In this document: one piece after another, positions 2-27,951 of the stretch
Position numbering within the stretch: the first letter of the stretch is position 1
How the letters are laid out: each line of letters opens with the position of its first letter
From: a bacterium
Lineage (GTDB): Bacteria; Cyanobacteriota; Vampirovibrionia; Gastranaerophilales; Gastranaerophilaceae
Direction: 5' to 3'
Assembly: GCA_017471365.1 (NCBI GenBank)
Contig: JAFUUC010000056.1
Coordinates: forward strand, 1-33,643
DNA: 33,643 nt
The notes under the pieces: model-generated
Databases searched by the model: none
What the model was told of the DNA's origin: nothing
Seen by the model: only the letters and a program-made list of their open reading frames with translations
Program-made: the position numbers and the translations under genes

Positions 2-685
2 GTATTAGGAGACGGTACACCGATAATATTATCTTATGATAAAAAATGTATCTCAGATCCTGATAGTGTAAAGGTAGATAATAAACAAATCCACAGTTGT
101 GTAGCGGGTATTTATGACTTCAACGGCTCCAGAAAACCAAATCTTTACGGTGGCGATGAACACACAAGAAACGACCTTATCTCATTTAATGGAGCAAAAC
201 TAAAAGATTCTTATATAGAGATAGGCGGAGTGAAGATAATCAGCCAGGCTAAAGTTCCTACAGGTGTTAGTTGTAGTGACTACATTGGAAAATCCGGCTA
301 CGAAGCAATCAAATCATGCGAATACAATAACAACGATGATTACTGGGTAGGGGCAATGGTTGAGTGTAAGAACCAAGGAGGCAGATTACCAAAAGCAAGT
401 GAACTGGCAAAAATAGCTCAGGCAATATACAACGACAATTCAATTAGCGAATCGGAAGATTACAACTATACAAACCCAACAGCAAACAATTGGGATAAGA
501 GCGTAACAGCCAAGCTGGGCATAGAAGACTCCGCTTCGTGGTTCGGCCTTTGGGGTGGCCTCGAGTACGACTCGGGCAATGCGTGGAACCGCTACTTCAG
601 CAGTTCGAACACGGGATGGGGCTACGACAGCGACGACCGCAGCCGCAGTAACTCCGATATCCGCGTTGTTTGTGTAGGAGGCTAG
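2..685 (+). CDS. C-type-lectin/FGE-like protein with DGR-type variable C-terminus (5' partial)
   Basis: The reading frame is open to the left edge, so the true start lies outside; at least 227 residues are visible. A GTG at 230 is in frame but has no reason to be the start. The middle holds GGRLPKASELAKIAQ, resembling the GGRLPTEAEWE-type motif of formylglycine-enzyme/C-type-lectin folds. The C-terminus reads AKLGI...FGLWGGLEYDSG and ends RVVCVGG, as in variable proteins of diversity-generating retroelements. Two Cys pairs in the visible N-terminal part (KKCISD, HSCVAG) and AGIYDFNGSRKPN are reminiscent of pilin-like/secreted proteins, but no signal or prepilin leader can be seen because the start is missing. 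The last ~150 bases are much richer in G+C than the rest of the gene. Likely a surface-displayed binding protein; the ligand is unknown. Downstream is a palindrome, a terminator, then convergent mazG. Confidence 0.75.
   Translation, partial: VLGDGTPIILSYDKKCISDPDSVKVDNKQIHSCVAGIYDFNGSRKPNLYGGDEHTRNDLISFNGAKLKDSYIEIGGVKIISQAKVPTGVSCSDYIGKSGYEAIKSCEYNNNDDYWVGAMVECKNQGGRLPKASELAKIAQAIYNDNSISESEDYNYTNPTANNWDKSVTAKLGIEDSASWFGLWGGLEYDSGNAWNRYFSSSNTGWGYDSDDRSRSNSDIRVVCVGG
531..682 (+). other. Candidate DGR variable region (VR)
   Basis: This 3'-terminal segment is GC-rich in an AT-rich gene. Its codons are dominated by NNC/NNT, including TTC, GGC, CTC, TAC, GAC, AAC, CGC and AGC. That is the spectrum expected when AAC/AAT codons of a template repeat are randomised at adenines. 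The resulting residues (N, Y, D, S, G, R, F, L) cluster at positions that form the ligand face in C-type-lectin DGR targets. Less variable anchors flank it (AKLGI before, RVVCV after). No template repeat, accessory gene or reverse transcriptase is present in this window, so mutagenesis would have to act from elsewhere. Confidence 0.6.
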
Positions 686-700
686 TTTGAATTTACTCTT

Positions 701-722
701 TTACCTTGTTTAAACAAGGTAA
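701..722. repeat. Perfect 22-bp palindrome downstream of the variable region
   Basis: Arm TTACCTTGTTT is followed directly by its exact complement AAACAAGGTAA, beginning 15 bases after the stop codon of the DGR-like gene. There is no loop, and no T-tract follows on the plus strand. DNA hairpins or cruciforms just after the variable region are known to promote target recognition in the Bordetella phage DGR, so this is a candidate for that role. It may equally be part of a transcription-end structure with the next hairpin. Confidence 0.6.
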
Positions 723-737
723 AGGAAATGTTTTGAT

Positions 738-27747: not shown

Positions 27748-27951
27748 TTAATTATCAGTTAAGCAAACGAACCTCGGGTAGTTGTCATTGCGATTAGAGT
27801 TGCCTATACCGCTCGTGCCACCTCTGCCGAAGCGGCGGCGGCGAGAGGTACTGCTCGCACTCGAGTCTTCCTCTGAAGACCACAGGTAGAAGGCCGAAAC
27901 AGAAGAAGGGGCAATGCCTAGTTTTGCTACCTCTGTAGTAGGGAGGGAAAC
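27748..27951 (-). pseudogene. Orphan DGR-like variable-region fragment
   Basis: On the minus strand an open frame without its own start reads VSLPTTEVAKLGIAPSSV, then SAFYLWSSEEDSSASSTS, RRRRFGRGGTSGIGNSNRND and NYPRFVCLTDN before TAA. AKLGI, F-x-LW-x-x-x-E and RFVC match the anchors of the variable region at 531-682, and the DNA is GC-rich with many NNC codons (AGC, CGC, GGC, AAC, GAC, TAC). Stop codons just upstream (27952-27954 and again 15-18 nt further) cut it off from any start, so it is a decayed or truncated DGR target. No template or reverse transcriptase is adjacent. Confidence 0.55.

Follow-up and report, generated by a model that had tools for sequence, protein, structure and literature searches.

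The 3′ end of the partial gene that opens the window (the whole stretch of 33,643 nucleotides analyzed here, which is contig C57 from its very first base) is very probably a variable repeat (VR) of a diversity-generating retroelement (DGR). The VR, at 529-677, closes a prepilin-like gene that would be a remote target of a template (TR) lying on another contig. The sequences themselves document the templates, an Avd gene, an adenine-specific pattern at dozens of loci, a homogenised non-adenine backbone and a DGR-type reverse transcriptase (RT) in relatives. We infer that an RT is present in the species now, or was until recently, and that retrohoming may be ongoing.

We propose a putative mechanism for this diversification. 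One template, TR1, is carried by an intergenic cassette made of a conserved leader followed by the TR; on a third contig there is a related cassette, which combines TR2 with an Avd gene. An error-prone DGR RT acting with Avd would reverse-transcribe the TR RNA. The product, a cDNA with random bases at the template adenines, would then take the place of the 3′ end in any one of some 60 dispersed pilin-lectin genes. Variable lectin tips could then be displayed on pilus-like fibres for binding.

A variable gene end and its remote template

2..685, + strand: target gene, truncated at its 5′ end (open reading frame; full-length paralogues have a prepilin N-terminal methylation motif at the start and a C-type-lectin-like domain at the end)
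529..677, + strand: probable DGR VR written from TR1 (adenine-biased mismatches, p = 2e-10)
620..631, + strand: in-frame insertion of 12 nt in the AAC tract of the VR relative to TR1 (from alignments; its placement inside the tract is arbitrary)
700..723, + strand: perfect 12-bp inverted repeat TTTACCTTGTTTAAACAAGGTAAA, 22 bases after the VR, a candidate retrohoming hairpin or a plain terminator
C36, about 508-645: TR1 template, an AAC-rich near-repeat upstream of rpoB, on another contig than the window

An earlier note on this DNA had described an abrupt change to a GC-rich gene end of NNC/NNT codons between AKLGI and RVVCV, and both the composition along the window and the open reading frame agree with it. 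The GC content of the partial gene is 0.61 in 501-650, about 0.39-0.41 upstream and 0.33-0.36 downstream, and clustered NNC/NNT codons fill the gene end between the two flanking motifs. Composition alone would suit an ordinary GC-rich or low-complexity gene end that belongs to no system. However, that reading is contradicted by the template match and the mismatch statistics given below, and we regard it as scarcely credible.

When positions 500-690 were searched against the window's own genome (G000; 1.81 Mb, 109 contigs, 96.9% complete, 0.08% contaminated), 28 clear copies were found (E ≤ 3e-10, that of the window among them), almost all located at gene 3′ ends and contig edges. The single non-target copy is TR1, which is AAC codon-rich and reads ...WNRNFNSSNTEWNNNNRNNNNIRVVCV. 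Compared with TR1, the window VR is altered at 18 of 41 adenines and at 1 of 96 other bases (Fisher p = 2e-10); it ends 5 bases before the stop codon. A near-repeat elsewhere in the genome, with mismatches on its adenines, is what the earlier note had proposed to look for, and its reading of the gene as a DGR target is supported by this comparison. It had also remarked that no template or RT lies nearby and that the next gene is a convergent mazG; indeed, mazG occupies 750-1520 and neither component adjoins the gene in the window. Its further idea of a remote target served in trans holds for the template; an RT was not found in the assembly.

The 12 extra nucleotides of the window VR are in frame and lie within the AAC tract. 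Most indels of TR1-type VRs are likewise in frame and fall at TR1 positions 91-108 in the alignments; nine of the ten TR1-type VRs with insertions have a single in-frame block there, and the tenth has 4+2 bases. Slippage by multiples of three in AAC repeats has been proposed before (PMC12875486), and these insertions are therefore not new.

Template cassettes and Avd

C101, 30203-30337: TR2 template, an AAC-rich repeat beside the Avd gene, upstream of secA
C101, 29837-30175, - strand: Avd (bAvd) gene, just after TR2 (PF22296, PHROG Avd)

The product of the Avd gene matches PF22296 above the cut-off and the PHROG family "Avd protein of DGR" with E = 9e-23; against NCBIfam DivGenRetAVD it scores 54.7 bits, below the cut-off of 80. 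TR1 has no Avd gene alongside. The two templates share a roughly 70-base leader that differs little between them, as well as a short stretch downstream, while the repeats themselves differ. The leader upstream of the TR is kept across TR1, TR2 and two other genomes, G004 and G064; in the same-genus genome G008 it overlaps the end of avd and lies directly upstream of the TR, ahead of the RT. It probably acts in cis as part of the template RNA. Scanning with the leader pattern gave no match among viral contigs and a sole match, RUG12020, which is G004, in the genome-contig collection; near TR1, Rfam yielded sub-threshold matches only. The leader can be written GAGCTTGT...CAGGGTGTAC-TTTTT-ATC-CGTC and is seen upstream of TRs in G000, G004, G064 and G008 (L017:296-345, L104 on the minus strand, L084, L142 and L143).

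The tail differs from TR2 in 25 of 35 TR2-type VRs. Two tail classes occur at TR2 positions 125-133 (L117, L120, L121, L123, L125 and others), which implies a third template, TR2b, with the expected tail AACTCNGGANACAGG. Against TR2b as deduced from the VRs, L121, L123 and L125 show 0 non-A mismatches. TR2b was not found in the G000 assembly; judging from these tails, it may be absent from the assembly or may be a recent ancestor of TR2.

Probable template-directed rewriting across the genome

A profile of the C-terminal domain has 98 matches in G000, both templates and a few fragments included, and about 90 genes there carry the domain. The same profile finds 28 matches in G034, 21 in G065, 15 in G064, 7 in G021 and 0-6 in the remaining genomes of the genus. 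Adenine bias against TR1 or TR2 at p<1e-3 is seen in 62 family members, each read singly. Of the 62, 55 show no more than 15 non-A mismatches (20 TR1-type, 35 TR2-type) and 18 no more than 3; VR ages in G000 spread from 0 to over 20 non-A mismatches. Judged by sequence, the remaining members are older or unrelated to TR1 and TR2. In TR1-type VRs (n=21) the mismatch rate is 0.50 at adenines and 0.044 elsewhere; TR2 finds a large VR set of its own, with rates of 0.48 and 0.067 (n=29). Three other TR1-type VRs combine 17-23 adenine changes with 0/96 non-A mismatches. We considered that the VRs might be strain duplicates of one locus, and this was ruled out, since the downstream flanks of 94 loci are distinct.

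The most variable columns of TR1 are almost all adenines (36 of 39), and when a VR is used as a mock template the pattern is weaker (0.43 at A, 0.17 at non-A). Segmental gene conversion among paralogous pilin genes, as in Neisseria pilE/pilS, would be in keeping with a large paralogue family with shared blocks. However, the changes sit on adenines of the template (per-gene p as low as 3e-15), and conversion has no such base preference; we therefore consider gene conversion very improbable.

Between paralogues, 57% (TR1) and 52% (TR2) of VR A sites are different, compared with 6.3% and 7.6% at non-A sites. In the 260 bases just upstream of the VR the difference is 16.8% (TR1) and 26.1% (TR2), values inflated by a short length-variable stretch. 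Because non-A sites differ less than the gene body upstream, simple divergence fails to explain the VR backbone, which appears to be overwritten from the template; as the VR backbones are nearly unmutated, the writing would be recent. The GTTTGCGTAG end is conserved and common to TR1 and most VRs, and is a candidate initiation of mutagenic homing site. Inverted repeats of at least 8 bp within 90 bases were found in 37 of 84 family members, compared with 3% in shuffles; terminators can account for many of them. The inverted repeat TTAGTGGTGGGGTANGTACCCCACC recurs downstream of many VRs in both families (e.g. L002, L008, L118, L129 and L121); possible identities for this element are a terminator, a dispersed repeat and a homing hairpin.

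The window also contains a second trace of the system:

27748..27866, - strand: decayed TR2-type VR (23/48 A and 8/104 non-A mismatches to TR2, p = 4e-8)

It belongs to a remnant target gene at 27748-27951 (-) of 67 residues, with a short prepilin-like start, a large internal deletion and a still recognisable VR.

The reverse transcriptase in this genome and its relatives

The check proposed in the earlier note also called for a DGR RT beside the template, and none is there. No RT was found in the G000 assembly, an incomplete bin, with PF00078 (RVT_1), a single-RT query or the genus DGR RT profile; local tblastn over selected stretches gave chance matches only, and the pgm site, which an RT follows in G004, has no RT in G000. 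Only the joint absence of template and RT was to count against a DGR; the template was found, so the DGR reading stands.

Relatives do encode the enzyme. An intact DGR-type RT with the SQ motif is present in G004, G008 and G064. Target, avd, leader, TR and RT all lie in one locus in G008. The RT of G004 is beside pgm and a target gene, with TR-avd on a different contig, and that of G064 adjoins a target gene and is unlinked to the template, which is on another contig. In G065 the RT (L178, G065:C90:14457-15092) is truncated at both ends; it lies between hom and thrC and not at a contig edge. As G065 is rich in targets and keeps only this truncated RT, RT loss is real in the genus. Viral and phage relatives of the RT reach no more than about 52% identity, and plasmid ones 34% or less among the matches listed; these sequence comparisons give no evidence of a close RT donor.

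We think it rather probable that the RT exists in the organism and lies outside the metagenome bin, in a repeat-flanked locus or an unbinned element. VRs with 0-1 non-A mismatches out of 96-104 are consistent with this, and the unseen TR2b needed for L121, L123 and L125 suggests that the assembly may lack part of the DGR. Additionally, the RT of G004 and G064 lies immediately upstream of a repeated target gene, the kind of place where the G000 assembly tends to break, and G034 likewise has fresh-looking VRs and no detected RT. However, an intact RT is absent in four of the five genomes with at least 7 targets (G000, G034, G065 and G021). Random gaps at 91-98% completeness are an unlikely cause of this, unless the RT site is systematically lost, and TR2b may just be the recent ancestor of TR2.

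The RT may instead have been lost recently, leaving templates and targets as a young fossil, a possibility that we consider less likely. The truncated RT of G065 and the range of VR ages speak for it, as do several Treponema denticola strains that hold VR genes without RT or TR (PMC4891356). However, G000 retains intact copies of both templates, of the leader and of Avd, and the youngest VRs show near-zero non-A divergence; therefore, any such loss must be very recent.

Comparison with known DGRs

In the canonical DGR of Bordetella phage BPP-1, the order is avd-TR-spacer-brt and the target is mtd. G000 resembles it in its adenine-specific TR-VR differences, in the position of the VR at the 3′ end of a C-type-lectin-like gene and in the presence of Avd; G008, of the same genus, comes close with target-avd-TR-RT in one locus. 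Unlike in BPP-1, the templates, Avd and targets of G000 are scattered over contigs, one template has no Avd, Avd comes after TR2 rather than before it, and an RT was not found in the assembly.

As in Treponema denticola (TvpA), one TR serves several dispersed lectin-fold targets, and some strains of that species hold targets without an RT, as does the G000 assembly. In contrast to its 2-7 targets, mostly lipoproteins (PMC4891356), G000 has about 60 adenine-biased targets, which are prepilin-like. Several templates and trans targets within one genome are also known from Trichodesmium erythraeum, with 18 loci of TR/VR homology (PMC8867640), and from Thiohalocapsa PB-PSB1, with 14 diversified targets from 9 DGRs (PMC10907252); both, as described, have far fewer targets than G000. 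Dozens of TR-VR pairs per genome are noted in one survey, the example given being atypical and non-adenine (PMC6642488). Set beside the descriptions cited here, the system is of a known kind and unusual in scale and layout.

Our tentative picture of that layout has about 60 hypermutable pilin-lectin genes (in a family of about 90), two or three stand-alone template cassettes and an RT supplied by a separate element, so that the repertoire of templates and targets would no longer depend on the RT locus. Should a closed genome bear out the count, the target number would be several times that of the multi-target DGR genomes compared here, and the system would be an example from nature of a single mutagenic machine that rewrites an entire family of surface-fibre genes. 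It also makes testable how far TR RNA reaches in trans and whether templates persist after their RT is gone.

Target proteins

A literature search for DGRs with Melainabacteria or prepilin found no paper. The full-length paralogue L018 matches PF07963 (N_methyl) and TIGR02532 above their cut-offs. In the AlphaFold model of the window protein (pTM 0.67), residues 70-227 have a pLDDT of about 88, and the best structural matches are almost all C-type-lectin-like (top Z 9.1 over 96 residues, rmsd 2.8); Foldseek E-values are weak. The C-terminal fold of the target proteins is thus predicted to be C-type-lectin-like, as the earlier note had supposed of the window gene. At the N-termini of L018 and L019, the prepilin motif is preceded by long leader peptides that resemble translated intergenic repeats (PSLAREG, SPLVGEG).
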